64,000 nt of DNA from Lacisediminihabitans profunda (GTDB lineage: Bacteria; Actinomycetota; Actinomycetes; Actinomycetales; Microbacteriaceae): assembly GCF_008040105.1 (NCBI RefSeq), contig NZ_VRMG01000008.1, forward strand, positions 124,001 through 188,000. Direction: 5' to 3'. The notes under the pieces were generated by a model, which worked only from the letters and a program-made list of their open reading frames with translations, ran no database searches and had not been told where the DNA came from. The translations under genes and the position numbers were made by a program. Positions 1,629-29,496 of the stretch are shown here, piece after piece; the stretch's first letter is position 1, and each line of letters begins with the position of its first letter.

Positions 1629-1770
1629 TCGCCGCCGCTCGCCATCAGAGCGCGTTTCGACTCCACCTGTTCGTGGGCTACAGGAACTGTGCCCTCACCG
1701 GCACAATGGCAGTGCACGCGCTTTCAAGTCTCGCTCCGGGAGACGTGGTGTGAGCAAGGAGGACCCGCTG

Positions 1771-3414
1771 ATGCGTCTCGTCAAGATCACTGTGAACAAC
1801 TACGCACGGTTGCAGGATCTCGACGTCGCCGTCCGCGGTCATCTCGTCGTCGTCGGCGCCAACGATGTCGGAAAAACCTCGCTCCTGCGCCTCCTCAATC
1901 TCCTGTTCGGCGCGACCGCACAGTTGTACCAGGGACTCTCAATCCGGGACCTACGCGACCCCAACACGCCGCTCACCATCAACGCGACCTTCAATGCGTT
2001 CAGCGAAGATGAACGAACCCTGTTCCATCGCGAGATCGACATTGATCCGGCAGATAAGTCAGAGTCGCTTGACGTTCGACTGGAAGTCCAGGTCGATCCT
2101 GAGGACCCGGAATCGGTGCTGATCTCCCGATGGTGCCCCGGCCGAGGGGAGGTGCGCCCACCCTCCCGCGAACAACTCGTCGCCTTTGGTTGGCGTTACC
2201 TTCCAGCCGTCCGGACCTCATCGGCAAACCAACTGGAGGGCTCCAACGGGGCCGTTCAAGTTCTGCTCAAAGCCGTCGAGTCCGAACTCGGAGATGAGAA
2301 AGCCGCACTCGGAAGCCTGCTGGACTCGTTCAACGACAAGCTGGAGGAGAGCAAAGCGTTGACGACCCTCCGTGAAGGCATGGCTGAACACCTGTCGAAC
2401 TCAATGCCGCGATCGATCGACGCGAACGACCTGTCCATCCGAACCTCCGCGGATCCCACCGAATCCGTTCTCGAAAACGTATCCATGTACTTCTCCCGGG
2501 AAGGCGCATTCGTTCCCTTGTCGGAACAGTCCGACGGAATCAGACAGCTGATCTCGATGACCCTGTTCGATCTCGCCGAGGGGGCTGCGAACGTCATCGC
2601 GATCGATGAGCCGGAACTGCACCTGCACCCGCTGAGTCAGCGCACCGTCGCCGAACTTCTCACACAGCAGGTCAACCAGAAGATCCTCGTGACCCACTCG
2701 CCCTACGTGGTGCAAAAGTTCGACCCGACCCAAGTGGTGGCCGTCAGCCCAGACGGCACTTGCCACCAAATCGACCCTGCCCAGTTCTCAGTAGAAGAAC
2801 GAACACAAGCCCACTGGTGGTCACCCCGCATGCTCGAGGCGCTCACCGCTCGATTCGCAATCCTCGTCGAGGGCATCGCGGACCGACTCATCGTCGAAGC
2901 GGTCGCCCACGCCCGCGGGCTTTCTCTCGACCGAATTGGGGCAATCGTTTTCGAACTCGGCGGGGCCGAGAACTTCCCAACCGTATACAAACTGCTCGGC
3001 CCTCACGGGTTCAATGTTCAGGTGTTGGGGCTGGTCGATGAAGCCGAAAGCCCGAGATGGGTTGGCGCCGTTGGCGGAAAGCCGAAGCACGTCATCGGCC
3101 GCGACGTGTTCATCTCCAAAGTCGACCTCGAGGAAGAATATTGCCGTGCACTGGGCGCCCCCGAAGTGGCACAGCGGCTCATCACCGCCCGAGTAGCCCA
3201 AGAATCAGGCGTTCTGTCCTCATGCGGAGTGAGCACACTCGCCGATGTCGGAGTCACCGAATTGGCCAAATTTTGCCGCTCCAGCACCAAGACCGCGAAC
3301 CGGAAAGTCCCCGCGGCGCTGGCGATCTCGAAATCGCTTACCGCCGACGATGCATTGAAGATCGACAGCGTGTCGTCGCTGGTGGCACGCCTTCAGACAC
3401 TCTCAAGCAAATGA
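1771..3414 (+). CDS. gajA: Gabija protein GajA: OLD-family ATPase with TOPRIM nuclease domain
   Basis: This 547-residue protein has the OLD layout. An ABC-type ATPase contains Walker A (GANDVGKTS, about residue 29), a signature-like segment (LSEQSDGIRQ), Walker B (VIAIDEPELHLHP, about 274) and the switch His (VTHSPY). A C-terminal TOPRIM domain has LVEGIADR (about 365), LVDEAE (about 421) and DLEEEY (about 451). GajA of known Gabija systems is a DNA-nicking endonuclease controlled by nucleotides, and it assembles with GajB. I chose ATG 1771 because a perfect AAGGAGG lies 7 bases upstream; GTG 1750 is in frame but contains that site. The stop overlaps the next start by four bases (ATGA), so the two are translationally coupled. 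The TOPRIM DxD motif reads D-E-A here, which is atypical. Length is close to the usual 550-600 residues. Confidence 0.87.
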   Translation: MRLVKITVNNYARLQDLDVAVRGHLVVVGANDVGKTSLLRLLNLLFGATAQLYQGLSIRDLRDPNTPLTINATFNAFSEDERTLFHREIDIDPADKSESLDVRLEVQVDPEDPESVLISRWCPGRGEVRPPSREQLVAFGWRYLPAVRTSSANQLEGSNGAVQVLLKAVESELGDEKAALGSLLDSFNDKLEESKALTTLREGMAEHLSNSMPRSIDANDLSIRTSADPTESVLENVSMYFSREGAFVPLSEQSDGIRQLISMTLFDLAEGAANVIAIDEPELHLHPLSQRTVAELLTQQVNQKILVTHSPYVVQKFDPTQVVAVSPDGTCHQIDPAQFSVEERTQAHWWSPRMLEALTARFAILVEGIADRLIVEAVAHARGLSLDRIGAIVFELGGAENFPTVYKLLGPHGFNVQVLGLVDEAESPRWVGAVGGKPKHVIGRDVFISKVDLEEEYCRALGAPEVAQRLITARVAQESGVLSSCGVSTLADVGVTELAKFCRSSTKTANRKVPAALAISKSLTADDALKIDSVSSLVARLQTLSSK

Positions 3415-5075
3415 CTGACTCCACCGCGTTCAATGATGCCGTCACCTCGCCCGCGCAAAATCTGTTAGTGATCGCCCCTCCGGGCTGCGGAAAGACCGAA
3501 CTGCTGGCGCGACGTGCGGAACTCCTCATCCCGACCCTCCGCCCGCATCAGAAAATCCTCGCCCTCACCTTCTCGAACAAAGCAAAAGCCAACCTCAATA
3601 GCCGCCTCGTGAGTGTTCTCGGTGCCGAACGGAAACGTCGTTACATCACCGTTCACAACTTCCATGGTCACGCCGCGGAGATTGTCCGCTCCCACGGTCT
3701 AACACTCGCCGTTGAGCCCGGATTTGAGATGCCAGACAAGCGATCTCAAGCTGATGCGATCGCACCATTCCTCGAGGGCTTATCGGAGGCAGACGCAAGC
3801 GAACTGAGCAGACGTATCGAAGACGATCTCCGCGACGCAAAGCAACGCCCACACGACGACGCCCAAGTGCTGCAAACACTTCGAGCGACCGGGATCAGCC
3901 AGTCTCAAACCATCGAAGAGGCACGACAGGCCGGTGACATCCTTTTTTTCGACGACCTACTCCGGCACGCCCAACGCTTGCTACGCGTGAATGAGATAGC
4001 GGCCCTCTACCGCAATCACTATGGCGCGATCCTGGTCGATGAGTTTCAGGATCTTTCACCGCAGCAGCTCGACCTCGCCCTGCGAAGCTCCGAGCAGAGC
4101 CGCACCTTCGTGGGCGACCCTCTTCAGGGCATCTACAGCTGGACGGGAGCTAGACCGGTAGAGGTGGAGAGGCTGCTCCGGAAGCTCAGCGGCGACCCGC
4201 TCGGTCTTGGAGTTTCCTACCGATCGTCGCCGCGAGTACTCGACCTGCTCAACACCGTTTCCGTTGGTCTTGGCGGCCAACCGCTCGAGCCTGACGATCC
4301 GGACGCCTGGCATGACGGTGGAATCACCAGCGGGCTCACGTTCGACACCGGCGCAGAAGAGGCAAAATTCATCGAAGCAACCTCTGCACGGATATTGGCA
4401 AAGCAACCGAACGCAACCATCGGGGTCATCTGTCGGTCCGGGTGGCGACGAAAGCCCATCGATGCGGTGTTCGCGACGTCGGACGTCCGAAGCACTAGAT
4501 GGGATCTCACAGTCGACGACGCACGAATCATCGAACTGCTCAATGAGGGAGTTACGCGGCTCGGAGGAGCCCCCACATTCGAGGCACTGAGGACTGACGT
4601 CATCGGACGGATCGATTCCGCAGACGTGGACACTGCCGCAGACGTGATCGACGCTCTCGAGCAACTTGAGGGGCTGGCCGAAGAGGCGGGATCAATCGGG
4701 GCCGCAATGGCTCAACTGCGAATCCTCGAGGAAGGCGAAGAAGCCATCGGGCCAGGAGTGCACCTACTCAACGCTCACACCGGGAAGGGCCAACAATTCG
4801 ACTGGGTCTTTATCCCAGGATTCGAGAAGGGCAACATTCCCAGCTTCCTCGCGAAAGGGAAAGCACAGATCGAGGAAGAACATCGGGTTCTTCTCGTCAT
4901 GTTGTCCCGCGCCCGTCACGGTGTGATTCTGACCCGCGCCAAATCGCTCATTTCCAAGCGTGGAAACCCTTACGGCACAACAATCAGCCCTTGGGCACAA
5001 GAGGTGCGCCCGGCGCTGATCGCGAACAGCACGCAACTGCTCGACCACATTGAGAACCTGACTCCGGCACAGTAG
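3411..5075 (+). CDS. gajB: Gabija protein GajB: UvrD/PcrA-like helicase
   Basis: This 554-residue superfamily 1 helicase shows Walker A (APPGCGKTE, about residue 22), motif Ia (LTFSNKAKANL), motif II (ILVDEFQDLSP, about 208), motif III (VGDPLQGIYSWTGA), motif V (TGKGQQFDWVFIPG) and motif VI (VMLSRARHGV). GajB is the UvrD-like partner of GajA in Gabija anti-phage defence. It is thought to respond to DNA ends made by GajA or by phage. The start ATG overlaps the gajA stop, so I reject a longer in-frame extension running back inside gajA. The pairing of an OLD nuclease with a UvrD helicase in this order defines Gabija. Confidence 0.87.
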   Translation: MTDSTAFNDAVTSPAQNLLVIAPPGCGKTELLARRAELLIPTLRPHQKILALTFSNKAKANLNSRLVSVLGAERKRRYITVHNFHGHAAEIVRSHGLTLAVEPGFEMPDKRSQADAIAPFLEGLSEADASELSRRIEDDLRDAKQRPHDDAQVLQTLRATGISQSQTIEEARQAGDILFFDDLLRHAQRLLRVNEIAALYRNHYGAILVDEFQDLSPQQLDLALRSSEQSRTFVGDPLQGIYSWTGARPVEVERLLRKLSGDPLGLGVSYRSSPRVLDLLNTVSVGLGGQPLEPDDPDAWHDGGITSGLTFDTGAEEAKFIEATSARILAKQPNATIGVICRSGWRRKPIDAVFATSDVRSTRWDLTVDDARIIELLNEGVTRLGGAPTFEALRTDVIGRIDSADVDTAADVIDALEQLEGLAEEAGSIGAAMAQLRILEEGEEAIGPGVHLLNAHTGKGQQFDWVFIPGFEKGNIPSFLAKGKAQIEEEHRVLLVMLSRARHGVILTRAKSLISKRGNPYGTTISPWAQEVRPALIANSTQLLDHIENLTPAQ

Positions 5076-5949: not shown

Positions 5950-6151
5950 AAAATTTACCAACCGACCTAGCCCTGACGGCGAGCGTCGATCAGTCAGTAA
6001 GAGTTCCTGGAGGCACGCCCACGAGCGTCAAGGTTGGCAACCATATCCGTCGGACCCCGAAATCGCTTGCGCGAATCACCATGCTTCCGAGCTGGAGGAC
6101 CAGACCGGCGCGCCCTCGATACTTTTGGCGGACTCGCGCGATCCTAATTTC

Positions 6152-13013: not shown

Positions 13014-14966
13014 TTAGCGCATCGCGCTAGGCGTCGGCCTGTTCCCACGCACGACCGCAACGACCGTGCTGTTCGTCACCGTGCCAGCTGCATCTCGTCG
13101 GTGGGCGACCCATATCGAGTCGTTGATGTGCGGTGTGCCGTCCGTGTGGTCGGTGAGGTCCAGCACGAGCAGCTGCCCGAGAGGCTCGTTCGTCGATTGG
13201 TATTCGACAGCCTGAGCCAAATACGCCGCCTCCAGGCTCGCTCTTGCCGCGTTGCTGAGTTCCCGCTTGACCTCAGTGACGTACCGCCGCGCCCCGTCGA
13301 AGGTGGCAATGACGTCCGCGCGACCACCCGCAATGTTCGAGTGCTCCTTTCCAACGCGGCCCGCCAGGTCCGATGCATTGAGGAACTCGTGGAAATGGTT
13401 CTGGATGTCCGCTTCAAGCGGCGGAGCACCGCCTTGAGGGATTCGCGCGGTGTACGGCTGCGAGTTATCCCCGACGTGGACGAGAAACCGAACGGTGTTG
13501 ACGACGAGAAGTGAGAAGTCTGCCTTTGCCATGCCTACGAAAGCCGGGTTCTCGCTGAGGTTTGCTACGAGGCCAGCGCAAAGGCGGTCGATGAGCTCGT
13601 TCGTTGGTCGATCACCGGCAAAGCTGCCAACGAACGTTTGACGGGCTGCTTCCTCGAGTCGCGCTCGATGAGGGCTTTCGAGGTCACCCAGCAAAGTGGA
13701 TGCCGGCCCCAACAGCGCTCGGAGGTATGGCTCACTAGGAGATGACTCCTCAGGTGCGTCACTCGGTTCGCGCCTGGCTGCGCGACCGAGGTGAACGAGA
13801 TCCAAGAGTTCGTAAATCTCTGGCGGGAGCTCAGGCTCATCTCGCCGCCTATCGATAGTGACGGCCCGCTCAAGCTGGTGTGCCATCGCTTCGCGTTGAG
13901 CGATCTCGTTCACAAGCCTTGGCTGAATGATCGAGGTCACCGTCCGGAGGTTGGTGAACTGCCGGTCAGCCTCGTATACCTTGATGATCGCGTCGACCGC
14001 GACCCAGGTGTCGAGGAACGCGTCCTCTTCGAGCTCGGTCGCGGCGGTCTCCAGCTGCCATGCCAGGGAAATCCATGCCAGTTGCGCACTGTGGCGCGCG
14101 GTGGCCTGGTGTCGACTGTGCATGCCGTAGGTGAGCAGGGCCCTTTGATCTGCGATAGCTCGAGCTGCCTGCGCCGACATGGAAAGTGTCGTCTTGTCTA
14201 CCTCGTCGAAGGCGATGAGAGCGGTGCAGGTTTGCGCAAACGCAGCGGCGTCCTCCCGTCCTTCGATCTGACGAGCGATCGCCTCGAATCCGTCCCGAGC
14301 ATCGCGAATCTTGCCGACAAGCTCTTCTTTGCCCGTCTGCATCAGAGCATCTCGGAGTTGCCCAACAGCACTCTCATACGCGGCGTCCTCACTGCCTCGC
14401 TCAGCCAGCGTGGCTAGCGCCCCAGCGAAGCGTGCTCGCTCCGCGGGAGTTGTCCAGATGTCCGCGGCAACGCCAAGTGCCCGGGCCAGAGGGTCATTGA
14501 AGTCTTCCGGGTAGTCCTGAACTGGACCCGTGAGCAGCGCCAGAAGCCGGTACGGAGCAACCGTCGTCTTGGCCGCTACTTCGAGAGCGATATCGAGCTG
14601 CAGTCCCGCGAGCAATGGACTCGACGCGATGGCCACTTCTCCAGGAAGTAAGGCGTCGTGCAGTGTGGCGGCCACGAGACTCAGGGCCCGCTCGTCGTCG
14701 AGCAAGATGTCTGCTGTTTCACGCAGAGCAAGGTAGCTGTGCTGGTGCGCCAGACCCGCGGCAAAGCTCAGGAGCGCCTCGGCGTGCTCGTCCGTCCACA
14801 ATCCGTCTCGTAGCTGCGAGCAAAAGGCATACGCCAGGTATGGAGCAAGGGGGTCGGCAGCCAGCCCAGAGGCTTCGGCGGCTATTTCGGCAACGGTCCC
14901 GAGCGAATCCAGAGTTACGGCGCTGGGGTCCGTCTTCGCTTCGGCAAGGTATTCAGCGATCGACAC
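13014..14966 (-). CDS. Large helical protein with C-terminal PD-(D/E)XK nuclease domain (Lamassu LmuA-like)
   Basis: A 650-residue protein. The first ~500 residues are almost entirely helical, Ala- and Glu-rich, and lack a known catalytic motif. The C-terminus has the PD-(D/E)XK pattern: RADVIATF (catalytic Asp about 550), then TEVKRE about 15 residues later (Glu and Lys), then a helix and strand (QLLVLDLT). It is the last gene of a three-gene run with a middle-component protein and an SMC-like ATPase. That arrangement is shared by ABC-three-component and Lamassu/Ddm systems, where a nuclease effector is held by the SMC complex. In typical LmuA/DdmA the nuclease domain is N-terminal, so this order is unusual. 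I prefer GTG 14966, five bases after GGGAGG; GTG 14972 is the alternative. Confidence 0.6.
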   Translation of the reverse strand: MSIAEYLAEAKTDPSAVTLDSLGTVAEIAAEASGLAADPLAPYLAYAFCSQLRDGLWTDEHAEALLSFAAGLAHQHSYLALRETADILLDDERALSLVAATLHDALLPGEVAIASSPLLAGLQLDIALEVAAKTTVAPYRLLALLTGPVQDYPEDFNDPLARALGVAADIWTTPAERARFAGALATLAERGSEDAAYESAVGQLRDALMQTGKEELVGKIRDARDGFEAIARQIEGREDAAAFAQTCTALIAFDEVDKTTLSMSAQAARAIADQRALLTYGMHSRHQATARHSAQLAWISLAWQLETAATELEEDAFLDTWVAVDAIIKVYEADRQFTNLRTVTSIIQPRLVNEIAQREAMAHQLERAVTIDRRRDEPELPPEIYELLDLVHLGRAARREPSDAPEESSPSEPYLRALLGPASTLLGDLESPHRARLEEAARQTFVGSFAGDRPTNELIDRLCAGLVANLSENPAFVGMAKADFSLLVVNTVRFLVHVGDNSQPYTARIPQGGAPPLEADIQNHFHEFLNASDLAGRVGKEHSNIAGGRADVIATFDGARRYVTEVKRELSNAARASLEAAYLAQAVEYQSTNEPLGQLLVLDLTDHTDGTPHINDSIWVAHRRDAAGTVTNSTVVAVVRGNRPTPSAMR

Positions 14967-15003
14967 CGTCACCTCCCAGGATGTCTGTCATTTGGCTGGA
15001 TCT

Positions 15004-16989
15004 TTAGAAGAGCGTTGTCCGGTTTGGTTTCGGCTCGATCGTGCCGGACACCCCCGACACGGCTGCTGCGAGGGACTTATCCGCTGTCGTCACAAGGATT
15101 TGCAGTCCAGGTTCTTCGGCCGCAGCGGTGACCAAGCCTTGGAGGAGGGTCTGTGCGTGGTCGTCCTGCACTTCTTCGGCTTTGAGGCTGTCGAGCAATA
15201 GGAGGCCTGGGTGTCCCGCGATATCGCGAGTGCGTGCTGTGCGCAGCAGCGCGACGACGAGGGCGTAGCGCAGACGAAGGCGTTCGCCCGGACTCTGCGA
15301 GCTGAAGCTTGACCGCGCGCCTCCACCCTTGGTGACGTCCATGTTGCCGTTGCCTTTGATCTTGATGCTCTCTAGCTCGCTAATTCCGAAGGCAAGGGCA
15401 AGGTCGCGGGTGGCATCGCTCAGATCGGAGTAGAGCGCGGCGCTTACCTGCGCGATCTCATCTTTGAGAATTTCGCTTGCGGCGCTGAGCACGACGACAG
15501 ATACGGGTGGTTCGGCCTCTTCAGGAGTCATCGCCTGGAGCGCTTCAACGACGGCCGTGGCGGCGGCGAATTCGTGTTCTGCTTCGATCCGCTCGGTCAT
15601 TTGTCGCACGCTTTGTGCTTGGGCGATCCGCCCGTCAACCGAGTTGAGGTCGTCCTGCGCGGCGCTGAAGTCGTAGTGCGACTTATTCTTCGCCGCGTCT
15701 AGGGCCTTCTCGGCTGCGCGCGTCGCCGCGAGAGCTTCGATTGCTTGAGTCTCGCGCTCGGCGTAGTCGTCTTCTTCGTCGAGGTGAAGCGTTGTGTCGC
15801 AGACAGCGCAGTGATGGTCGTCGTGCTCTCGCGAGCGACGCTGAGCGCTGATTGGGGTCTCGCATCGGGGACAGAACTGCGGATTCAGGCCGTGGAACAG
15901 GGCGCTTGCCGCTTTCGACTCGCGGAGACCGTTGAGGGCCTTTTCGTCGGCAACACGGGCGATCTGCGCATCGCCGAAGGCAGTGGCTGCTGCTTCCACC
16001 GCCTGTCTGGCAGCGGCGACGCGAGCGCCTGCGTCAGCGGCGAGTCCGATCAAGTCCTGCAGGCTTTCGGCTGGAATCTGATTGCTAAGAGCTTCGAGGC
16101 GGGTCTCGGCACTCGCGCTTCGGTCCCGTGCGTCTTGAAGTTGTTTCGCGATGGCTGTATTCGTGTCACGACCCCGGCGTTGTTCTGCCTTGAACTCGCT
16201 GTCGAGACGCTGAGCGAGCGCCCTGACCCGCATCGAGCGCGTTGCCTCGGGCATGTCGAGGAAGACCTGCATCATTCTTACGGGCAGTTGATCACCCGCC
16301 GTGCTGCCGAGCAAGATCGTATCTGCGCCGGACGGCGGATACAGGACGCCGAAGTACGCGGGCCAGCCGTGCGACTTGATGATGCCGGCTTCGTCGTCGT
16401 TGCGTGCTCGATTGAAGACTTGCATCTCTTCGAGCCCGAGTTGGGTCATCATGAACGCGCCAACTTGCTCGGCCCATTCGTCGCTGCTCTGGGCGCTCGC
16501 CAGCTCGGTCGTGCCTGCTGCGATCGAGTCATCGCTTGCTGCCAGATCTGCGATCGTACCCGCCAAGATGCGGCCTTCAGTAACCTCGGACGTGTCCAGC
16601 GAGAGCCGGAATCCGATCGGTTGACCGTTGATGTGCACGTCAAGCGAGACCTCTTTGAGCCAGGACAGTACGTCGGCTTGTAGATTGCGTGGCTCTCCTC
16701 TGAGGACAAGCGTGAGCACTTCGAGGATGCTGGTTTTGCCTCGGAGATTGTCAGCTGCGATGACCGTGACCCCGAGTCCAAAGTCAAAGGTCTCGTCGAA
16801 AGCACCTGCTTCGACTGCCCCGGCCTTGTCGCCACGGACTCTTAGACGATCTAGCCGAATGCTGCGCCGGCGTCGGTTGCTCGTCGTCAGATTCAACCCG
16901 TAGTCGTTGAGGGTCTGTTCGACGATTTCCTGGGAGCACTCGGCAGCGGAAGCGATCCGCTCGATGAGGGTGGTGCTTGCTTCGCTCAC
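15004..16989 (-). CDS. SMC/Rad50-like ATPase with zinc motif (Lamassu LmuB / ABC-3C-like)
   Basis: A 661-residue protein with split ABC ATPase halves: Walker A AADNLRGKTSILE (about residue 80) at the N-terminus, and a signature SPGERLRLRYALV (about 563) plus Walker B GLLLLDSLKAEE (about 596) at the C-terminus. Between them are two coiled-coil arms and a zinc motif (CPRC ... CAVC, about 370-395) at the predicted hinge. This is the compact SMC/Rad50 layout of Lamassu LmuB (DdmC) and ABC-3C ATPases, which sense unusual DNA such as ends or plasmids. GTG 16989 shares a base with the upstream TAG, so translation is coupled to the middle component. A Rad50-like repair ATPase is less likely because no Mre11 is present. 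Confidence 0.72.
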   Translation of the reverse strand: MSEASTTLIERIASAAECSQEIVEQTLNDYGLNLTTSNRRRRSIRLDRLRVRGDKAGAVEAGAFDETFDFGLGVTVIAADNLRGKTSILEVLTLVLRGEPRNLQADVLSWLKEVSLDVHINGQPIGFRLSLDTSEVTEGRILAGTIADLAASDDSIAAGTTELASAQSSDEWAEQVGAFMMTQLGLEEMQVFNRARNDDEAGIIKSHGWPAYFGVLYPPSGADTILLGSTAGDQLPVRMMQVFLDMPEATRSMRVRALAQRLDSEFKAEQRRGRDTNTAIAKQLQDARDRSASAETRLEALSNQIPAESLQDLIGLAADAGARVAAARQAVEAAATAFGDAQIARVADEKALNGLRESKAASALFHGLNPQFCPRCETPISAQRRSREHDDHHCAVCDTTLHLDEEDDYAERETQAIEALAATRAAEKALDAAKNKSHYDFSAAQDDLNSVDGRIAQAQSVRQMTERIEAEHEFAAATAVVEALQAMTPEEAEPPVSVVVLSAASEILKDEIAQVSAALYSDLSDATRDLALAFGISELESIKIKGNGNMDVTKGGGARSSFSSQSPGERLRLRYALVVALLRTARTRDIAGHPGLLLLDSLKAEEVQDDHAQTLLQGLVTAAAEEPGLQILVTTADKSLAAAVSGVSGTIEPKPNRTTLF

Positions 16990-17675
16990 TATTGTTGTCC
17001 GCCCTCTGCGCTCGCCAGCGCATCCTTAAGTCGTTGTCTTGCGCGGGCTGCGATACCTGCGATGTGAGTTCCGAGCGCGGCATCGGCGTACTCAGGCTGG
17101 AGGTACTGAATGTCACGCAGTGCACTGCCGCGCCGGCCTGCGGCAAGATCGGCCACGAGCGTCGACCGCTCGACGTAGTAAGAAAGGTCCGGTGCCGTAT
17201 CGACGATCGTCTGCGCTGCAGTTCGGCCAGAGGAGGTGAGGTAGTAGTCATGCTGCGTGATGTGACCGTTGCTGCCTTGCTTCCGGCGGATCACAAGTCC
17301 AGGAGTACGTAGCACTGATAGCGCTTCATCGAGTGGCTCGTACGCGCCGAAAAGATAGCGAAGCATCTGGTAGGAACGGACCTCGGGCTCGTCACTCTCC
17401 AGGATGTGGCGAGCTAGGTCGAGATCCTCTGGGTTGCTGTCGCGCTCGTAGCGCGAGATCAGCTCGTCGGCGAGGTAGTCCGGATTGCGAAGCCAGAAGT
17501 CGAGCTTCTGGAGCAAGACTTGAGAGTGAAGAACCGCAACTGCGTCCGACGGAGCGTCTGTCGGCATCGGCTCGGAAAGAGGCTCGGCTGCCGCAGCGAT
17601 GAGAAGCAAGAGGCGAACGGCATCTTGATAGACACTGGTCGTACGCCCATCCGCCACCACCTCAAAGTTCACCAC
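16989..17675 (-). CDS. ABC-3C middle component / Lamassu LmuC-like protein
   Basis: A 228-residue, mostly helical protein with a probable winged-helix segment near the C-terminal third (VIRRKQGSNGHITQHDYYLT followed by SSGRTAA). It is directly upstream of and overlapping the SMC-like ATPase gene, the usual place and size of the middle component of ABC-3C and Lamassu systems, which bridges ATPase and effector. The start is GTG 17675. The function is inferred from context, size and fold pattern, not from a catalytic motif. Confidence 0.55.
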   Translation of the reverse strand: MVNFEVVADGRTTSVYQDAVRLLLLIAAAAEPLSEPMPTDAPSDAVAVLHSQVLLQKLDFWLRNPDYLADELISRYERDSNPEDLDLARHILESDEPEVRSYQMLRYLFGAYEPLDEALSVLRTPGLVIRRKQGSNGHITQHDYYLTSSGRTAAQTIVDTAPDLSYYVERSTLVADLAAGRRGSALRDIQYLQPEYADAALGTHIAGIAARARQRLKDALASAEGGQQ

Positions 17676-17764
17676 AGAACTGAGGTTAGTGGGCTGCCGT
17701 GTCTCTGCGAGGGAGGCTCGGCATGCCTAGCTGAGCGACTAGCTGGTGCAGGGCGCGCCCGACT

Positions 17765-18574
17765 CTAGGTGTCCGGCGCAAGAACAGCGTGGTCAATCCG
17801 CCGATGGATCATTGAGAGTGTCCCAAGGACGTCTAGGGCATCTTGCTCTGTGAGCGTCCACTCGATGCGAGGCTCGTGTGCGGCGGGATTTCAGAATGCG
17901 CTGAACAGCCCCTTCGCGAGGTTCGCCACACCGAGCTGTTCGTCGCGTTGTGTCCTCGTTTGGAGGGCATTGATGCGGAGCATGGGCGAGCTGCCAGCCA
18001 TGGCTGATTCGACGAGGCCATAACCGTCCGCGTCGAGACCGGTCAACTGCCGCATCCTGCTCCCGAGCCCCTTGATCGCCTCGAACACTGCCTCGTAATA
18101 ATCCTTACGGAGAAGCTCAGAGCGGCAGTACGCGAGAACCTCTTGGTGTGCCCCTCGATTTCGCAACAGAGTTTGCAGGCGCTCCGTGCGATCGCGCGCC
18201 TCGTCGGTTGTCTGCGCTCTTGTGGTGTGGGCGACTTTGCCGTCGTCTCTGACCCGAAGGCCGACTAGCGAGAGGACTTGGTTGAGCTCGTCGCGTGATT
18301 GGTGCGCGGCATCTGCTCGATCGAAGATGCGGTCTGGGCGCATCGACGCAGTGATGAGCGCGATCAGAGCGTTCCCGGAACCCGTGGCGGCCTGGTTGCT
18401 GCTCACAGCGAAGGCAAGCCTGCGCCACTTTGTGTTTCCTTCGCCAGGATCGTTCTTCAATGGGATCTCAGCCATGATGCGGGTGAGTTCCGAGCCGCTA
18501 TAGAGATCACCGATCAGCTTGCAGGTTTGCTCGAGTGCGCCGGATGGGAAGGGCGGGTGTTTTGCGGCTGTCAC
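17765..18574 (-). pseudogene. TIGR02391/Ymh-family HEPN-type protein interrupted by in-frame TGA
   Basis: The frame runs 227 codons from ATG 18574 and stops at TGA 17893-17891 after KGLFSAF. Reading straight through the stop in the same frame gives NPAAHEPRIEW, then DALDVLGTLSMIHRRIDHAV, and ends at TAG 17767-17765. In the Ymh family this place reads FRNPxAHE, so TGA replaces the expected Arg of the R-N-P-x-x-H (RX4H) HEPN-like active site, consistent with one C-to-T change in a CGA codon. The conserved SPMLRINALQT segment precedes it. The gene overlaps the helicase stop by four bases (ATGA) and belongs to that operon. The truncated product lacks the catalytic motif. A sequencing error or readthrough is possible. 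Confidence 0.8.
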
Positions 18575-21156
18575 GCCTGTGACTCGTTCTTCTCGCCAAC
18601 GGGGTCGAACGTAAGGCGCTCGTGGATCTGTGACGGCAGCACGCCTCGACTGTTGAAGGTGCCACCGACGAGCTGCCTCAATTCCGAGGCGGATCGTCCA
18701 GCGCTCTTCGTGAGCAGTTCATCCCAAGCCGATCCGACGTCGTAGGCCAACTCGGAGAGGATTGACGGTGGGACGAGATGAACATGGGATTCGGCTCCCT
18801 TGATGCCATCATCATGCACGCCGGGCTTAGGGGAGATGACGATGGTGGCGCTGTCGACGGGCGACATTTCGACACCTCTGTCCGCGGCCAGCAGTCGGAG
18901 TTGATCGTTGGCCTGACGAATGTCCTTATGCGGTACGACCCCGGTCGGTTCGTGATCGCTCTTGGCCTCCAGTGCGAGCCAGAGTTCGTTATCCCAGCAC
19001 CATGTTGAGTCGCAACGCCCCGTGCCCGCCGGCTTTTCAGCCGTTGCGCCGACCAGTGTCCCCAACTTCGTCAACGCAGGTTCATACAAGCTCGGTTTGC
19101 GCTCTTGAAGGCCTGCATGGATCTCGCCGAGACGGCGATGGATCTTTCCCTGATTGACGCCGGCTTCTAGTTCAGCCGCCACCACGTTGACGGCGTAGGC
19201 ATCGACGGAGTTGAGCGCCGAGCGTTGCATGGCAGGGAACGGCGCCATTTGTCGTACCCACGATCCGAGCCCCATGACTTGCTCGGCGAGTCGGACGAGG
19301 GTGCCGGCTGCGGCGCGCCCCGACGCGTCGTTGGTCTGGTCGGCGGCTTGGTCTGCCCAGGCGGCCTGAAGGTAGATCCAGAACGCGCGATATCCGACGG
19401 TGCTCGTGCCGCCGGCCCCGACCAAGCGGGCGACCTCGTGAGCGTGCTGTGCCGCCTCCGCCCACGCGCCGATCGTGGCCGCGGCCCATGCCTGGATCTC
19501 GTACTCTACGCACGATGAAAGAGAGGCTGTGCCGGCCGGCATCTGTTGTGCCATCTCGCGGCGGTAGTCGGTGAGGGCTGGCTCCGCGTTGATGCGCCAG
19601 CTTTCGTCGGTGTCCTGGTGGAGGAAGGCCCGCACATTGGTGAGTACATCTGCTGGAGAGCCAGCTTGCGAGTTCTCACGCCCGAATCGGATCTCGGCCT
19701 GTAGCTCCGAATCAAGGGCCGCGACAACCTCGGGTCGGGTCAGATAGCGCGAGAGGTCAGAGCCTAAGACTAGGACGACGGCGGTGTCCTCGGGACCTCG
19801 GGTGCATCGTCCAGCGCCCTGCACTACACGAGTGCGCACGCGAGCTGCCAATGCCGCTCCAGCGCGTGCGCGGGATTGGAGGAATCGCTCTTGGAGGTTG
19901 TCCTGATCGGGCACGCCATCGAGGCCAACCAGGCGGCAGGCATCTCCGGGAAGATCCAGCCCGTCGTACCGCGCCGCCAATCCGCACACACCATGTTCCA
20001 GGGCCGCGAACGGAGCCATGCTGTCGCTGACCTGGTCGACGCCCCAGACTGGCCAGCCCGGCTGGGCGAGTTCTTTGGCGTCGGCCATCGCAACCTCTGT
20101 CCGTGGGGCCAAGACGAGTGCTTTGCCGGCCTCTTCCACGACGGCTCGGCTCAGTTCTCCGACATCCACGTTCTCGACGAACTCGGGGAACACGAAGAAT
20201 CGCCGCCCGTAGCGTGGGGCGGTGCTGGGTTGCGCGAGACGCAGCATTCCTGCCCGCCCGAATGCCCGTTCGAGTTCTCCGCCTTCTCCAAGAGTGGCTG
20301 ACAGGTAGACCCGCTGGCGGGCACCAGTAAAGAGAGGGTTCTGGTATGTCGGCGGGACATACGGGCGGATCAAGATTCCGGAGTAGGCGACGTAGACCAG
20401 GCACGAGGCCAGACCCGCGCGGATCATCGAGTAACGATAGCTGTGCGGAGAGGCGAATGAACTAAGCACAGCGTCGAGATTCGCGGTCATGCCCGCTTGC
20501 CGGAGAGGGATCACGAGGCGCACGTCGCCGCTGATTCCAGGGTCAGGTTGGTCACTGCGCAATCGTTCGAGAAAGACGCCATCGAGTGCCGGTGCGATCG
20601 CCTCAAGCGCCGCGGCGTATTCATTGGGAGCCTTCCATCGCCCCAAATCGACGCCATATGCTTCGCCGACGTATTGCTCGCCGGCATGCGCATCATCGAA
20701 CAAAATCAGGTCAGCGTCTGCCAGGTGCGGGTTGCTGTTGAAGATGCTGCTGTAGGTCGTGACGGCGATCGCGTCCGCGGCGTCGTAGGACGCGTGCGCG
20801 GCGACGGGCCATTCCGCATGGCGCCCGACGAGAACAGCTGTATCGATCCCTTCGCGGTATGCCGACGCCGCAACCTGTCGAGCAAGCTGCTGTGTGGGGC
20901 ATGCGTAAATAACTCGCGCTTTGCGGCTACGACGCGTCCACTCAGCGATCAGCAAACCGGTCACAGTCTTCCCAGTTCCGGTGGGAAGCTCCAACGCAAC
21001 ATCCGAGGCGTTCGACTGTGCCGTGAAGGTCTGGAGCATCTCAGACTGATGCGCCCAGAGCCCAGGCACAGCTCCTGGACGGCGAGGAAGGTCTCTATAC
21101 AGCTCGCCCGGTGACGAGTAGCTCGCAGAACTCGCTGCCGTTCGCACGAATGCCAT
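18571..21156 (-). CDS. DEAD/DEAH-like helicase with C-terminal nuclease-like domain
   Basis: An 861-residue protein. The helicase core has Walker A ELPTGTGKTVTG (about residue 60), motif Ib-like YACPTQQLARQ, motif II LILFDDAHAGE (DDAH instead of DEAH, about 150), YLSATLG (motif III) and a late VVQGAGRCTRG (motif VI), resembling XPD/DinG-type helicases. After a helical middle, residues near 715-745 (DSTWCWDN ... LALEAKSDHEP ... DIRQANDQL) fit a PD-(D/E)XK nuclease with an E-A-K core. ATG 21156 is preceded by GAGGAGG; the upstream in-frame extension lacks this support. Its stop overlaps the Ymh-type gene, so helicase and HEPN protein are co-translated. Helicase-nuclease fusions of this type are common in defence loci; the exact family is unknown to me. 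Confidence 0.72.
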   Translation of the reverse strand: MAFVRTAASSASYSSPGELYRDLPRRPGAVPGLWAHQSEMLQTFTAQSNASDVALELPTGTGKTVTGLLIAEWTRRSRKARVIYACPTQQLARQVAASAYREGIDTAVLVGRHAEWPVAAHASYDAADAIAVTTYSSIFNSNPHLADADLILFDDAHAGEQYVGEAYGVDLGRWKAPNEYAAALEAIAPALDGVFLERLRSDQPDPGISGDVRLVIPLRQAGMTANLDAVLSSFASPHSYRYSMIRAGLASCLVYVAYSGILIRPYVPPTYQNPLFTGARQRVYLSATLGEGGELERAFGRAGMLRLAQPSTAPRYGRRFFVFPEFVENVDVGELSRAVVEEAGKALVLAPRTEVAMADAKELAQPGWPVWGVDQVSDSMAPFAALEHGVCGLAARYDGLDLPGDACRLVGLDGVPDQDNLQERFLQSRARAGAALAARVRTRVVQGAGRCTRGPEDTAVVLVLGSDLSRYLTRPEVVAALDSELQAEIRFGRENSQAGSPADVLTNVRAFLHQDTDESWRINAEPALTDYRREMAQQMPAGTASLSSCVEYEIQAWAAATIGAWAEAAQHAHEVARLVGAGGTSTVGYRAFWIYLQAAWADQAADQTNDASGRAAAGTLVRLAEQVMGLGSWVRQMAPFPAMQRSALNSVDAYAVNVVAAELEAGVNQGKIHRRLGEIHAGLQERKPSLYEPALTKLGTLVGATAEKPAGTGRCDSTWCWDNELWLALEAKSDHEPTGVVPHKDIRQANDQLRLLAADRGVEMSPVDSATIVISPKPGVHDDGIKGAESHVHLVPPSILSELAYDVGSAWDELLTKSAGRSASELRQLVGGTFNSRGVLPSQIHERLTFDPVGEKNESQA

Positions 21157-21311
21157 ATCGCCTCCTCGTCTAGTGAACGCAAGCGCGGAGCCTGCCGTCA
21201 ATCCAAGTGTGTCGTACGGGCTGGGGTCTTAGGTCGTTTTCTAGAACCGTTCTGCGAGCACGCACCACAACGGCGGTGCCGTCTACCTGAGGGTCAGCGG
21301 GACATCGTTCG

Positions 21312-22466
21312 TCAGCTATCGAAGTCGGGCCTGCCGGAGCACCAGGACGCGTCAATGCCAAGGGCGTCGAATGCCGGAGGACGACCCAGCGATTGCGGGT
21401 CACGCCCGCAGACGTTTACGGGGTCTGCCCACACGATGTCGGCGACGATAGCCGCCGACGGGTCCAAGGTAGTCCACAAGGCCGGCGTCACCGAAGCCAA
21501 GTTGTGGAGCGTCAGACCGGCAGCGACGATCACGTTCGGGTTGTGAGAACGTCGCCAACCATTCTTCGTACGCCAATGCCCGTCGGTGTGAAGGTCTGCC
21601 GGATCCTCGACACTAGCGGGTGGTGATGCGCTGAGGCCGTACAAGGCGGCGGACACGTCGTAGTCACGCGTTGGGAACTCCGTGTTGCTAAGTACAGCGG
21701 TCACCAAGGGGTGCGGCAGCTGCGTTCCGTATTTGTTCGCCTTCGAGTCAAGAGCTCGTCCGAGGCCGGTGGTGTTATCTACCCCCTTAGCCCGTCCCTC
21801 TCCGCGAATCCCGATCAGCGGCGATCTGCCCTTCGTCGGCAAAGCCTCGAAAGACAGCGCCCAACCGTCATCCTCGAAACGGAAGGATGGACGGAATGCG
21901 TGGAGTTCAAAGGCATCACTCCGCCAACCCAACGCTGACGTGTCCAGCGAGTCGATCCATCGGACGAGCCGGTCCCTTAACTTGGCGGCACGAATCGGCT
22001 TGGCGCCGACCCGGTGATACTCGAACATCAAGGTGATCCCGGCGACGCGGACTTGGTCGAGGACCGCCTCGACATCTCGCAATCGTTTTTCGGTAGCGAC
22101 GTGTTCTGGCGAACGGCCGACTGAGATCGCTTCTAAGTAGTACGAAGTCGCGGCATGCACCAGAAAGTCTGGATGCTTAGACGTGCCGGGAACGTCAGGA
22201 TGAATCTCAACACGGTCACCGGTACCAGTCGCGGCGGCGTACAGGTATAACTCCCAAAAGGCGCTCTCGAACTTGTCGTCGCCGCTCGTGAGGTTGCCAA
22301 CGATTCCGGCACGATGCTCGGCTGGGATGTCATCAACCCACTTTTCGAGCAAGTCCCGTATGGGCGCGAAATAAGCCGAGCCTGTGCGATCCAGGAAGCT
22401 GAACGTTGTCTCGTTCGCCTTCCTCGGCGACCTGTCCGAGCGAGCCCTGTTAGTGAAGATCGTCAC
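21312..22466 (-). CDS. PD-(D/E)XK-superfamily-like hypothetical protein
   Basis: A 384-residue protein. Its N-terminal third reads FESAFWELYLYAAAT (Glu about 68-72), SKHPDFLVHA (Asp about 98) and YYLEAISVG (Glu about 112), the spacing of a restriction-endonuclease-like fold with PD and E-A elements. The usual Lys of E-x-K is replaced by Ile, so activity is uncertain. The C-terminal half has further beta-rich segments without known motifs. It lies 155 bases upstream of the helicase gene on the same strand and may belong to the same transcript. The function is unknown. Confidence 0.6.
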   Translation of the reverse strand: MTIFTNRARSDRSPRKANETTFSFLDRTGSAYFAPIRDLLEKWVDDIPAEHRAGIVGNLTSGDDKFESAFWELYLYAAATGTGDRVEIHPDVPGTSKHPDFLVHAATSYYLEAISVGRSPEHVATEKRLRDVEAVLDQVRVAGITLMFEYHRVGAKPIRAAKLRDRLVRWIDSLDTSALGWRSDAFELHAFRPSFRFEDDGWALSFEALPTKGRSPLIGIRGEGRAKGVDNTTGLGRALDSKANKYGTQLPHPLVTAVLSNTEFPTRDYDVSAALYGLSASPPASVEDPADLHTDGHWRTKNGWRRSHNPNVIVAAGLTLHNLASVTPALWTTLDPSAAIVADIVWADPVNVCGRDPQSLGRPPAFDALGIDASWCSGRPDFDS

Positions 22467-22638: not shown

Positions 22639-23475
22639 TCAGCTAGCTGTCACGAGGTCGCAACGCTCCATCCATCGGGCGAGCAAGCTCAGAGTAGCCA
22701 GCCTTTCCAGTGCGTCCTGCGGCTCCATCTCTTGTTCGCCGTGCGCGGCTGAGTTGCGAATCGTCATTTGGACGCCGGGAGCGAACTGTCTCAGCCCGTC
22801 ATTCATGGTCTTGACTGCGCGGTCGTTCGGCTCGCCGGGCCAGCGCAACCGCGGCTTCCCGGGTGTGGGTTCGGCGTTAGAGAATGCTTCCTGCCATAAC
22901 GCTGTTTCCGCAATGTCATTGCGCCGCGTCAGGGCCTTCACTTGCCCGACCACCGCCTCTGCTGCAGCTGCGACCGCTTGCTGGAAGTGCTCGTCGAGCC
23001 ACAGCTTGCGGGCCGCGCCCCACACCAGCGGGTGCATTGCTTCCACGCCTGTGGTTGGAGGCGCTGCGGCTTCGGCTTGACTGATGAGCGCCTGGAGCCG
23101 GCCGATCGTGCTGTCGGCAGCGGAAATGACATTGGGTGGTTCGAGGAGGGGTTTCGGGTCGGCGATGGTGGACCAAGCTGCGATCGGGTCGATTTCGCCG
23201 ATCCCTGCAACGCCGATCTTGATGCCCGTCAGCAGTGTGGCGTTGGCTGCCGCCCCGGCCGCTTGGTCGACGGCTGAGCGACGCGTTGCTACATCCGCCG
23301 GGTCGGCATCGTCTCGCGGCACCACCGCAGGCAGGAGCCCTCGCCCGAATCCGGCATCCTTCGTTTCTACTTGGAGTTCGAGGAACTCCGCGAGGGCTGT
23401 CTTGAACTGTTCGACCGCGTTAATGAGCGAACGAAGGTAGTCCGGGTTTCGGTTCAAGTTCATGAACTCGAGCAT
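22639..23475 (-). CDS. TIGR02391/Ymh-family HEPN-type protein (intact)
   Basis: A 278-residue protein. The C-terminal half carries the Ymh pattern: MHPLVWGAARKLW, VVGQVKALT, a central stretch of conserved Trp and Pro, then QMTIRNSAAHG (Arg about 239, His about 244) and DALERLATLSLLARWMERCD. RNSAAH is an intact R-N-x3-H HEPN-like site. It is a distant paralogue of the broken gene at 17765-18574. ATG 23475 or ATG 23463 could start it; the former has GAGGG about ten bases upstream. It heads the minus-strand defence run and shares its promoter region with the divergent small gene at 23630. Confidence 0.65.
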   Translation of the reverse strand: MLEFMNLNRNPDYLRSLINAVEQFKTALAEFLELQVETKDAGFGRGLLPAVVPRDDADPADVATRRSAVDQAAGAAANATLLTGIKIGVAGIGEIDPIAAWSTIADPKPLLEPPNVISAADSTIGRLQALISQAEAAAPPTTGVEAMHPLVWGAARKLWLDEHFQQAVAAAAEAVVGQVKALTRRNDIAETALWQEAFSNAEPTPGKPRLRWPGEPNDRAVKTMNDGLRQFAPGVQMTIRNSAAHGEQEMEPQDALERLATLSLLARWMERCDLVTAS

Positions 23476-24697: not shown

Positions 24698-27600
24698 TCA
24701 CAGCGACGGCGACGTCCGCTCTGTTGCTGATCTGCTCGGCTCGTGTGCGGCGGGACCGTCCTTGGCGATCCGCTGCGCGGTCCGGATGGCTGCCTGCGCG
24801 CGGGCGTGGTCGAGTCGTGACTGCGGGCTTGGTTCGCCGCCGAGCGGCTTCGGGTCGGTGATTTGATAGCGGTCTCGGTATGCCGCGATCACACGCACCT
24901 GTCGAAGCCATTGCTGACGCTGCTTCTCCCCTGCCGGAGCCGGGCCGAGCGTCACCGTCCACGGGACGCCGGCCGTGGTGTCAGTTTCGGCGATGGTCAT
25001 CGCGCGCTTCTCGATCAGGGCTTTGCGTTCGTTCAGTGCGGCACGCATCTCGATGGTCATCTGTCCGGTGGCTTCCGGGATGAGGCCAACGATCAGTGGC
25101 GAGCTGCCGCGTCTGCGGGTGCTCCCGGTTTGGTTTGCGGTGGCGTGTTGGATGCGTTGTCGGATGACCGCGCCCAGGTCGTCTGCGTCATCGAGGCCCC
25201 GAGCGGCGATCAGTCGTGGGAGGAGAAGGTCGACGTTGCGTTGGGTGGCTTCGGCGCGACGCAACTCAGCCATGAGGGGGCCGAACGACTCCGATTCGAT
25301 GATCTGATCGACCTGTCCCGGAGTAAGGATCGTGTGTTCGAGAAGGCTCACCCACCGCTCGTACTGGGCGGTTTGAGCGATCGTCTCGTACTCTGCTGCG
25401 AGCTGTCCGATCCCTGCCCAGGTGTTCTGTTCGATCGTGATGGTTTCGTGCGCGCTCTTCTCCGCCCCCTCGTGGTTGAGGACCGCGGCGAGGATGGTCG
25501 TGGCTGTGACGTCGCTGTCGGGGAGTAGTTGGTGTTCCTCGAGTTGGGTCTGGTCGGTGGCGACGTAGGCGGCGTTCGCGTCGCGTCCACGGGTCATGGA
25601 TACGTAAAAGGTTTCGCGGGTCATCTGGGTGGAGTGGACAATCGCGTGCGCGGTGTCCACGGTTGAGCCCTGTGCCCGGTGGGCGGTAACCGCGTAGGCG
25701 AGTTCCACGTTCTCGGCAACGTAGGTCGCGGGCAGCCTGATCGAAGCACCCGTGCGTCTTCCGGGGCGCCGCACGGTGATGGAGCCGTCGTTGTGGGTGG
25801 CGGTGATGGTCCAGCGGTCGCCGTTCTTCACCCACCCGGTGCCGGTGGTGAGGGTGCGGTCATTCTTTCTGGTGATGACAAGATCGCCGGAGCTGGCTTC
25901 GGTCTCGTCGTGAAGGGTGATGGCACCGGCTGCCTTGACTTGACCGGTGATGATGCGGTCCAGGCGGGCTCGTTCGTTGAGGGCGGTGACGGTCTCGTTG
26001 GTCTCGGCGATCATCACCGAGGCTTTCCCTGCGGCAAGGTCCTGTTGCCAGGCCGTGTATGCGGCGTCGAGCATGCCGTCCAGAGGGCCTTCAGCGATGC
26101 GCCGACGTTGGAGGTAGGTATCGATGATGGTGGTGTCGCCAAGGCGAAGTTGGAGACTCGCGTTCTTCTCCCACTCGTTGCGGAACCGGCGGACGTCGAG
26201 CAGTTCGGCGGCTGGTTCCATGTCGCGGGCGACCATCGCGAACGCTCCCCCGGTTTCCACCGCGGACAACTGTGCCCAGTCCCCAACCAGCAATAGTTTC
26301 GCCCCGACGCTGGCGGCGTGCGAGGCGATGGTGTCGAGGGTGAATGTGCCGGCGAGGGATGCCTCGTCGATGATCACCAGTTGCTCTGCCTCGAACGTCC
26401 ACCCGTTGTGCTGATGGGCGTGGACCCATTTGGCGGTGTTCTCGGTTGCGATGTCGAGTTCGTCGGCGAGGACCTGTGCGGCGGCAGCGGACGGCGCGAG
26501 TCCGATCACGGATCCTCGACCGTGCTCGGATTCCCACGCCTTCCGGAGAGCGTGCAAAGTCGTGGTCTTCCCGGTCCCGGCAGGACCGACGAGAACGTCA
26601 ACGGTTCGCCCAGAGACCGCGACGTGGGCGACAGCGGCCAACTGGTCCTCCGATAGGGAGATTCCGCGGGCATCCGTTCTGCTCGTCTCCCGCTCCACCG
26701 ACTCGAGATCAAGCGTCGGGGCGTTCGTCCTGTGGGCGAGGGCGAGGAGGCGGTCTTCCGCGGCGAGCAGTTCGGCGGAGGAGAACAGGGCACCGTGTTT
26801 GGGACGGAACGTGCTGGATCCGTCGCCGCGTCGGAACTCCGCCGGCGATGAGGCGAGCTCCGGCGGAGTGAGTCGCAAAGACCCATGCTCTGCGGCATCC
26901 ACGATCAACCCCAACACCGCTTCCCGATCGACGGTTGACACGAAGCGAACGCCCATCAGCTGACGCGACGCTTCCGCGTGCAGGTTCCACCTGCGCCAGG
27001 TCGACCGCTTCGACCCCACTACCTCGACGACCGTGCTGCCGATCTGTTCCGCCACATCCAGGGGCACATCGTCGGCGCGTAGTAGGGCTGGTTGACTGCT
27101 TCGGGCGAGGAGGTTGGTCGCCCATGTGGTGCTGTCTTCTCCGAGGATCGTGTTGGCGCGGCTGCGCCATTCGTCGGTCAGGTCCGCCAGGGAGTGGATC
27201 GTCTTCTCTGGTCGGGTCGAGAGGGTCGCTTCGGCGCGGAGTCGAAGGATTGTTCTCGCAGATGGTTGACGCCCGTGTTTCTCGACGTAGTCGGCGATTA
27301 GGGTGTCGGCGGCGACCTCGATGTTGCGGGAGCGGGAAGAGAACGCGCCGATCAGATCGTCCCTCACGCCGATGATTTCGAACGCGGGGTTGCGGCGTTC
27401 GCCGCGTTCCCGTGACTCCCATCCGATGCCGAGGTCGCGGGCGAGATGGTCGGCGAGGATCGCGTTGTAGTGCTCTGACAGGGCGACCACGGCGGCGTGC
27501 ATCGGCCGTCCGTCGAGGGTGCGCCACTTCCCGTCGTGTGCGCCCTGCACCTTGTTCGCAATCACCACATGGGTGTGCAATTGCGGGTCCGATGCGCGGG

Positions 27601-28249
27601 AGTCGTAATGGTCATACGCTGTTGCAACCAGTCCGCGAACCTCGACTTGCGCGACCGAGCCGTTGCCGGCATCCGCACCGACGCGAGTCATTGCAACGTC
27701 GCGTTCCATCAGATCGAGGATCTCTGCAACGGCGTTGTGGTGCGCTTGCACGATGAGGGATTGCGTGCCCCCGTCCGCAACGGCCCACAAGGTGCTCACG
27801 CTCTTCGGGACAGAGAAGGTGAGATCGAACCCGGCAACAGCGCGCCGCCTCGTGCGGGCTCGCTCCTCGTTCTCGATGGCGGTGATGGCTTCCGCCCGCT
27901 GCGCAACATTCAACTCCGCGGGCAGGTTTCTGATGCGGGCCTCGATTCGCTCGGCCGCTGTCTTGAAAGTCGGCCACGCTTTCCCCAACGGCTCGCCCGT
28001 CACCGGGTCGCACCCCAAGCCGAGGAGAAGCTGAAGCTGCGACTCAGTCACCTCGGCACCCGGCACCAATTCCCCATGACGGAGTCCGGCAATGCCGGAC
28101 CCGAGCCAGAAACCGGGTGGCGTCCCCTTCTCTTGGTAGTACCGCGTCAGAGCAGTCGTGAGACTACGGTTTCCGTCGCCTGCGGCGACAGTTTTCAGAA
28201 GGTAGCGGTATCCGTCACCCGCGGACATGACACGCATTGACACCGTCAC
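24698..28249 (-). CDS. MobF-family conjugative relaxase (TrwC/TraI-like) with helicase domain
   Basis: An 1183-residue protein. The N-terminal relaxase domain has an early Tyr (GDGYRYLLKT) and the three-His HUH motif DPQLHTHVVI (about residue 225). The helicase half has Walker A VGPAGTGKTTTLH (about 558), Walker B VIIDEASLAG (about 625), GDWAQLSAVE, and late motifs AYAVTAHRAQGSTVD and YVSMTRGRD, as in TraI/RecD2-type SF1 helicases. It would nick oriT, bind the 5' end covalently and unwind the transferred strand. The start is GTG 28249 behind GAGGTGATCGC. Two hairpins lie within 71 bases upstream. It probably works with the VirD4 and T4SS genes at the right of the window. Confidence 0.92.
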   Translation of the reverse strand: MTVSMRVMSAGDGYRYLLKTVAAGDGNRSLTTALTRYYQEKGTPPGFWLGSGIAGLRHGELVPGAEVTESQLQLLLGLGCDPVTGEPLGKAWPTFKTAAERIEARIRNLPAELNVAQRAEAITAIENEERARTRRRAVAGFDLTFSVPKSVSTLWAVADGGTQSLIVQAHHNAVAEILDLMERDVAMTRVGADAGNGSVAQVEVRGLVATAYDHYDSRASDPQLHTHVVIANKVQGAHDGKWRTLDGRPMHAAVVALSEHYNAILADHLARDLGIGWESRERGERRNPAFEIIGVRDDLIGAFSSRSRNIEVAADTLIADYVEKHGRQPSARTILRLRAEATLSTRPEKTIHSLADLTDEWRSRANTILGEDSTTWATNLLARSSQPALLRADDVPLDVAEQIGSTVVEVVGSKRSTWRRWNLHAEASRQLMGVRFVSTVDREAVLGLIVDAAEHGSLRLTPPELASSPAEFRRGDGSSTFRPKHGALFSSAELLAAEDRLLALAHRTNAPTLDLESVERETSRTDARGISLSEDQLAAVAHVAVSGRTVDVLVGPAGTGKTTTLHALRKAWESEHGRGSVIGLAPSAAAAQVLADELDIATENTAKWVHAHQHNGWTFEAEQLVIIDEASLAGTFTLDTIASHAASVGAKLLLVGDWAQLSAVETGGAFAMVARDMEPAAELLDVRRFRNEWEKNASLQLRLGDTTIIDTYLQRRRIAEGPLDGMLDAAYTAWQQDLAAGKASVMIAETNETVTALNERARLDRIITGQVKAAGAITLHDETEASSGDLVITRKNDRTLTTGTGWVKNGDRWTITATHNDGSITVRRPGRRTGASIRLPATYVAENVELAYAVTAHRAQGSTVDTAHAIVHSTQMTRETFYVSMTRGRDANAAYVATDQTQLEEHQLLPDSDVTATTILAAVLNHEGAEKSAHETITIEQNTWAGIGQLAAEYETIAQTAQYERWVSLLEHTILTPGQVDQIIESESFGPLMAELRRAEATQRNVDLLLPRLIAARGLDDADDLGAVIRQRIQHATANQTGSTRRRGSSPLIVGLIPEATGQMTIEMRAALNERKALIEKRAMTIAETDTTAGVPWTVTLGPAPAGEKQRQQWLRQVRVIAAYRDRYQITDPKPLGGEPSPQSRLDHARAQAAIRTAQRIAKDGPAAHEPSRSATERTSPSL

Positions 28250-29435: not shown

Positions 29436-29496
29436 GGTCTGGGTTCTCCTTTCCGGGTCAGGGGTGCCGCTCTTCGCGGGGCGGCACCCGGTTCCC

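Follow-up and report, generated by a model that had tools for sequence, protein, structure and literature searches.

Hna of S. meliloti has been described as a single-effector abortive system, an ATP-restrained dimer with 3'-5' ssDNA exonuclease activity that is switched on by phage SSB (PMC13381803). Lamassu (LmuABC; also ABC-3C or DdmABC) probably senses aberrant DNA via LmuB and then activates LmuA; in the review from which this is taken, the effector domain of LmuA is placed N-terminally, the Walker B motif of LmuB carries a Glu-to-Gln change from which poor hydrolysis is inferred, and the Vibrio Lamassu is stated to need the PriA helicase (PMC10586767). Elsewhere, Lamassu is reported to have gained an upstream accessory pair consisting of a nuclease with a protease (PMC12799240). 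PD-Lambda-3 has been associated with abortive infection (PMC13190303) and is tabulated with a PD-(D/E)XK nuclease domain (PMC10952713). Ymh proteins are described as HEPN domains with an active site, which occur either alone or within R-M operons (PMC3710099).

In the window, by which we mean the whole stretch of 64,000 nucleotides of Lacisediminihabitans profunda analysed here, two known and separate anti-phage units, one Hna-like and one Lamassu, very probably stand back to back in a defence island on a MobF-type element that appears to be integrated (Table 1). An earlier note on this DNA had proposed a composite five-gene system for the region 13014-21156, with two adjacent systems as an alternative, and it is the alternative that matches the evidence presented below. 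A seemingly new composite resolves into two known kinds of system within one island, and co-directional spacing easily misleads.

Table 1. Coordinates of the genes discussed, given as positions in the window.
Feature	Coordinates	Strand	Evidence
Gabija GajA (1750-3414) and GajB (ORF 3057-5075)	1750..5075	+	PADLOC E 1.1e-162 and 4.6e-140
LmuA effector, 652 aa, putative C-terminal PD-(D/E)XK nuclease site	13014..14972	-	PADLOC and invariant residues
LmuB, SMC/Rad50-like ABC ATPase, 661 aa	15004..16989	-	PADLOC and invariant residues
LmuC, Lamassu middle component, 228 aa	16989..17675	-	PADLOC and trio loci
3' part of the Ymh gene past the stop, 41 codons (NPAAHE...), ending in a second stop and containing the HEPN histidine	17765..17890	-	Comparison with Granulicoccus L003
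Ymh/HEPN gene (PF09509; PD-Lambda-3_B-like), 227 aa, predicted active site lost to an in-frame stop	17891..18574	-	Profiles and homologues
Most likely Hna-family SF2 helicase with C-terminal PD-(D/E)XK nuclease, 861 aa, ATG start	18571..21156	-	PADLOC, phmmer, Foldseek, conservation
TrwC/MobF relaxase of the carrying element	24698..28249	-	PF08751 E 2.1e-90

As the earlier note had it, the window's list of open reading frames holds five long co-directional ORFs here, all on the minus strand, transcribed from 21156 down to 13014 in the order helicase, Ymh, LmuC, LmuB, LmuA. Their best PADLOC matches (E 5.5e-57 to 1.5e-177) extend over nearly the full protein length, and these are thus not chance ORFs. 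Most of the junctions had been described correctly: the helicase and Ymh genes do overlap by four bases, though the sequence is GTGA and not ATGA, LmuC and LmuB share one base, and LmuB and LmuA are separated by 31 bases, a gap previously given as 31-38. The 89-base gap reported before the middle component does not stand, since the distance from the actual stop of the Ymh gene to the start of LmuC is 215 bases. Exactly 89 bases separate LmuC from the end of the continuing Ymh frame at 17765, which suggests that the stop had been overlooked. Two more minus-strand genes lie upstream of the helicase (22466-21312 and 23475-22639, with gaps of 155 and 172 bases), so that the choice of five genes is arbitrary and follows no natural boundary. 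Scans for promoter-like sites (0 against 1.3 expected) and terminator-like sites (5 against 5.3 expected, all five on the plus strand) stayed at or below the shuffle level and were uninformative. The two units may be on one common transcript.

The first gene most likely encodes a helicase-nuclease of the Hna family, as indicated by profile, PDB sequence match and fold ranking. Its product matched PADLOC PDC-S28 at E 1.4e-88 over near its full length as well as Pfam DEAD/ResIII, and its best phmmer match among PDB sequences was 10uj (E 4e-27, residues 49-497), the Hna monomer (PMC13381803). An AlphaFold model built from eight homologues was of low confidence (mean pLDDT 62.9, pTM 0.36); we disregarded the TM-scores of so weak a model and used the ranking of Foldseek hits alone, in which the top three were Hna chains (E 2.8e-25, 1.2e-18 and 1.2e-9; best hits 9yhn/9ykj), ahead of CasDinG and XPD. 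PDC-S28 is an unpublished PADLOC candidate to which another tool gives a different system name (PMC11811056); from the PADLOC, phmmer and Foldseek matches taken together, we infer that it is Hna.

The earlier description of this protein as a helicase with a PD-(D/E)XK-like end was well chosen. A DinG-type SF2 helicase core is present by Pfam, phmmer, alignment and Foldseek, and contains P58-TGTGKT64, DDxH (154-157), SAT (286-288) and QGxGR (446-450), which we take to be the helicase motifs and which are invariant in eight homologues; the nuclease residues D716 and E730xK732 are likewise invariant in the eight-sequence alignment. Sequence alignment of the nuclease end to 10uj is weak (1.7 bits), and we accepted the C-terminal PD-(D/E)XK domain mainly on residue conservation, together with PADLOC and Foldseek alignments that span nearly the whole protein. 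As encoded, the catalytic motifs are intact. The protein resembles S. meliloti Hna (PDB 10UJ/9YKJ) in its length (861 against 845 aa), its DinG-like SF2 core and its C-terminal PD-(D/E)XK domain, but differs from it in that identity in the structural alignment is only 18% and that the helicase is here coupled to a Ymh/HEPN gene.

This second gene belongs to the Hypoth_Ymh family (PF09509) and matched PADLOC PD-Lambda-3_B at E 5.5e-57 (residues 6-226), while an intact copy from Granulicoccus (L003) matched the same profile at E 4.4e-71. The earlier note named the family well and missed an in-frame TGA at 17893-17891. The active site of HEPN RNases is R-x4-6-H; it is intact in the Granulicoccus copy (RNPAAHE) and absent from the product in the window, where the stop falls at the arginine. 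The residue at this position is Arg, within an RNxxxH motif, in 15 of the 15 distinct homologues inspected, a set outside which most of the 103 plasmid matches fall (the homologue at locus L111 is frame-broken elsewhere). The HEPN active site is lost from the predicted product through a stop at the catalytic arginine. The gene is like subunit B of PD-Lambda-3 in matching its profile, and unlike it in having a helicase as partner and an active site cut off by the stop. PADLOC gave no match to PD-Lambda-3_A among the 20 window proteins scanned, the neighbours of Ymh included, and PD-Lambda-3 was for this reason rejected as the identity of the whole helicase-Ymh pair.

A second Ymh-domain gene lies upstream of the helicase (22639-23475, minus strand; PF09509 E 4.4e-24) and has an RNSAAHGE motif, identified by eye, so that the island has one intact-looking and one broken Ymh gene. 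A further instance of a damaged Ymh gene was seen in genome G396, where a homologue at L111 (8907-9561) is broken into three frames and immediately precedes an ORF for an AAA/OLD-type ATPase.

The last three genes constitute a complete predicted Lamassu operon in the order LmuC-LmuB-LmuA, and the earlier naming of a Lamassu/ABC-3C trio was apt. All three gave near-full-length PADLOC matches (LmuC, E 2.2e-88, residues 9-223; LmuB, E 1.5e-177, residues 1-655; LmuA, E 1e-146, residues 4-652), and none matched PDB sequences. Each was compared across ten sequences, that of the window included. In LmuB, the Walker A residues N81..GK85, the signature glycine and two CxxC motifs (373/376 and 394/397) were invariant in all ten. 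The Walker B motif of ABC ATPases usually ends in Asp-Glu; in its place, all ten LmuB sequences have Asp-Ser (D600-S601 in the window), the serine of which would act like the Gln of other Lamassu. The PD-(D/E)XK residues of LmuA (E543, GRxD553, E567xK569 and Q587, assigned by eye) were invariant in 10 of 10, and the predicted effector site is intact. The operon shares with other Lamassu its three components, its gene order (as in nine of nine further loci), the Zn-type cysteines and a degenerate Walker B. It departs from the reviewed systems in the C-terminal position of its LmuA nuclease site, where the review puts the effector domain N-terminally, and in having Ser instead of Glu in Walker B, where the review gives Gln (PMC10586767).

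Whether these parts travel together was gauged from their neighbourhoods in other genomes, which were scanned by tblastn (E <= 1e-3 and 38 bits or more) and then with our own profiles at E <= 0.01, over flanks of about 8-10 kb, some ended by contig edges. The 30 helicase loci comprised 7 from genome contigs, 4 from a phylum draw, 8 from a family draw and 11 from plasmid records. The phylum draw contributed those 4 of 38 other matching genomes with E < 1e-15, the rest being short helicase-core matches, and the family draw 8 of 39 at the same cut; the plasmid records examined were 11 of 220 (10 of the 20 with at least 80% coverage and an Embleya record at 79%), with the 209 others outside the tally. 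For the 15 Ymh loci, 5 of 103 plasmid records were used and the marginal genomes G408 and G409 were excluded, as was the G220 neighbourhood (L066), which had no match at the 38-bit cut; in L067 the Ymh match extends over 77 residues only. The nine Lamassu loci drew on 5 of 34 plasmid records, the Embleya locus among them, with the marginal genomes G529 and G578 excluded and with L063 counted, in which LmuA is split over two frames.

Ymh was adjacent to the helicase in one of the 30 helicase loci (Granulicoccus L003) and Lamassu was nearby in one (L068, an Embleya plasmid); neither was adjacent in the other 28, and it is the helicases of the window and of L003 that are coupled to Ymh. Among the Ymh loci, the helicase was found in 1/15 (L003) and Lamassu in 0/15. 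The Lamassu trio stood together in the same order in all nine of its loci, with a helicase near it in one (L068) and Ymh in none. The purpose-built profiles altered none of these calls and added one weak LmuB-profile match (L111, E 7e-5), to a protein that is an AAA/OLD-type ATPase. The closest helicase relative by identity (80%), in Gordonia otitidis (L002), has neither Ymh nor Lamassu adjacent, and its genome gave no LmuB match and no Ymh match. Across the whole genomes of L002-L008, Ymh occurred in one of seven and LmuB, for which the set has no positive control, in none. In the phylum draw of 396 genomes, no other genome was common to the matches for the helicase at E < 1e-15 (4), Ymh (7) and LmuB (3). 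On the other side of the balance, one genome of the window's family, G442, contains a helicase relative (E 7.8e-30) as well as the trio, though about 1.17 Mb apart; G214 (with LmuB) and G220 (with Ymh) gave weak, short helicase-core matches (E 5.7e-8 and 4.8e-4) that were not counted as relatives. DNA similarity between the window and the Gordonia locus covers the helicase alone (18590-21167), and that with the Granulicoccus locus covers helicase and Ymh (17799-21121), ending before LmuC. The trio occurs independently of the helicase and of Ymh.

The Granulicoccus locus raises the possibility that the helicase and Ymh form a true two-gene variant of Hna, in which a helicase-nuclease sensor would be joined to a HEPN RNase arm, independently of Lamassu and with the HEPN arm off in the window. 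This is compatible with the two-unit explanation and would refine its first unit; we regard it as a real possibility, if short of an even chance. The four-base overlap is conserved in both loci and the pair is 78%/77% identical between them, with the HEPN motif intact in Granulicoccus, but just these two loci show it, both on related elements with a homologous relaxase, and they may therefore represent one acquisition. Since the helicase occurs without Ymh in 29 of its 30 loci, Ymh would be an accessory, and 14 of the 15 Ymh loci are in turn without the helicase. The bolder form of this proposal, an undescribed variant whose ssDNA- and SSB-sensing helicase-nuclease also unleashes a HEPN RNase, with the RNase arm stopped here and Lamassu serving as a second suicide arm, we consider rather unlikely. 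No named Hna-HEPN pair was found in the titles and abstract starts of open-access PMC literature, and the novelty left at this locus, namely an Hna-HEPN coupling that is inactivated locally, is modest. Its value would lie in a natural pairing of Hna with HEPN in which the HEPN arm alone is lost and the helicase-nuclease is intact, and for which the intact Granulicoccus copy offers a comparison.

Past the TGA, the Ymh frame continues as NPAAHEPRIEW... as far as the second stop. The window's gene is identical to the Granulicoccus copy at 174 of 227 residues ahead of the stop and at 30 of the 35 compared beyond it, and the base differences past the stop fall mainly in third codon positions (5/1/21). 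Such a conserved frame indicates that the stop is recent or an assembly error, and a sequencing error could be responsible. The same conservation might be expected if the TGA were read through or recoded such that the HEPN protein is made, but recent mutation or sequencing error accounts for it equally well, and we rejected recoding, which appears very improbable, as none of the 15 inspected homologues has a stop at that site.

Also very improbable is a single five-gene system whose helicase would process DNA for Lamassu or load it, much as the Vibrio system needs PriA (PMC10586767), and whose HEPN protein would be a second effector. The shared strand and short spacing in the window would suit it, as would the acquisition of upstream accessory genes by Lamassu elsewhere (PMC12799240) and the Embleya plasmid (NZ_CP108778.1), whose 38%-identical helicase shares its strand with the trio and lies 3490 bases upstream of it, with four annotated genes intervening; yet the helicase is absent from 8 of 9 trio loci and Ymh from 9 of 9, Lamassu is missing from 29 of 30 helicase loci and 15 of 15 Ymh loci, the segment homologous to Granulicoccus stops before LmuC, and the HEPN component is broken in the window. 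The five-gene composite was rejected on these tallies: independent occurrence of the trio and of the helicase and Ymh is the outcome that the earlier note had itself said would refute it. In titles and abstract starts of open-access PMC literature, no helicase-HEPN pair joined to Lamassu was found.

For the two separate units, triggers, autoinhibition and outcome may be supposed to follow those of published relatives. If it works as S. meliloti Hna does, the helicase-nuclease would be held as an ATP-restrained dimer until phage SSB releases it, whereupon ssDNA would be degraded and abortive infection would follow. The RNase-like Ymh/HEPN gene, coupled to the helicase by its overlap, would be disabled here by the stop at the catalytic arginine. 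In the second unit, LmuB, as a Rad50/SMC-like protein with a degenerate Walker B, would sense aberrant DNA together with LmuC, and this sensing would release the PD-(D/E)XK nuclease LmuA. The Hna-like unit and Lamassu would, on these analogies, act independently, with the HEPN arm dead.

In Granulicoccus, too, the helicase-Ymh pair has a homologue of the relaxase in Table 1 nearby, and a second stretch of similarity with that locus covers 25139-28251 of the window. The pair would thus be carried by related MobF elements, with Lamassu as separate cargo next to it. A viral or prophage origin was rejected, as a scan of IMG/VR, which finds close relatives only, matched the helicase once, over a short stretch of 48 residues (E 5e-4), and Ymh, LmuC and LmuB not at all, and among 50,697 phage records the helicase was matched in one (44% covered) and Ymh in seven.

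Several other genes of the island deserve mention alongside Gabija, which is another of its defence systems. A 1311-aa YobI-like P-loop NTPase (8068-12003, plus strand; PF20693 E 8.7e-99, PADLOC Tmn E 6.2e-48) is probably a further defence gene. The 384-aa protein encoded directly upstream of the helicase (21312-22466, minus strand) was matched by PADLOC only weakly, to PD-T7-5 (E 1.2e-5) and to PD-T7-1 (E 0.0019), and a 680-aa protein (5855-7897, plus strand) matched PDC-M68A and HNH/DUF4263-type effectors in part, over residues ~132-228. Adjoining the relaxase, a DprA-like protein (28506-31017, minus strand; PADLOC ShosA E 1.6e-54) overlaps the end of a ParB_N-domain ORF.
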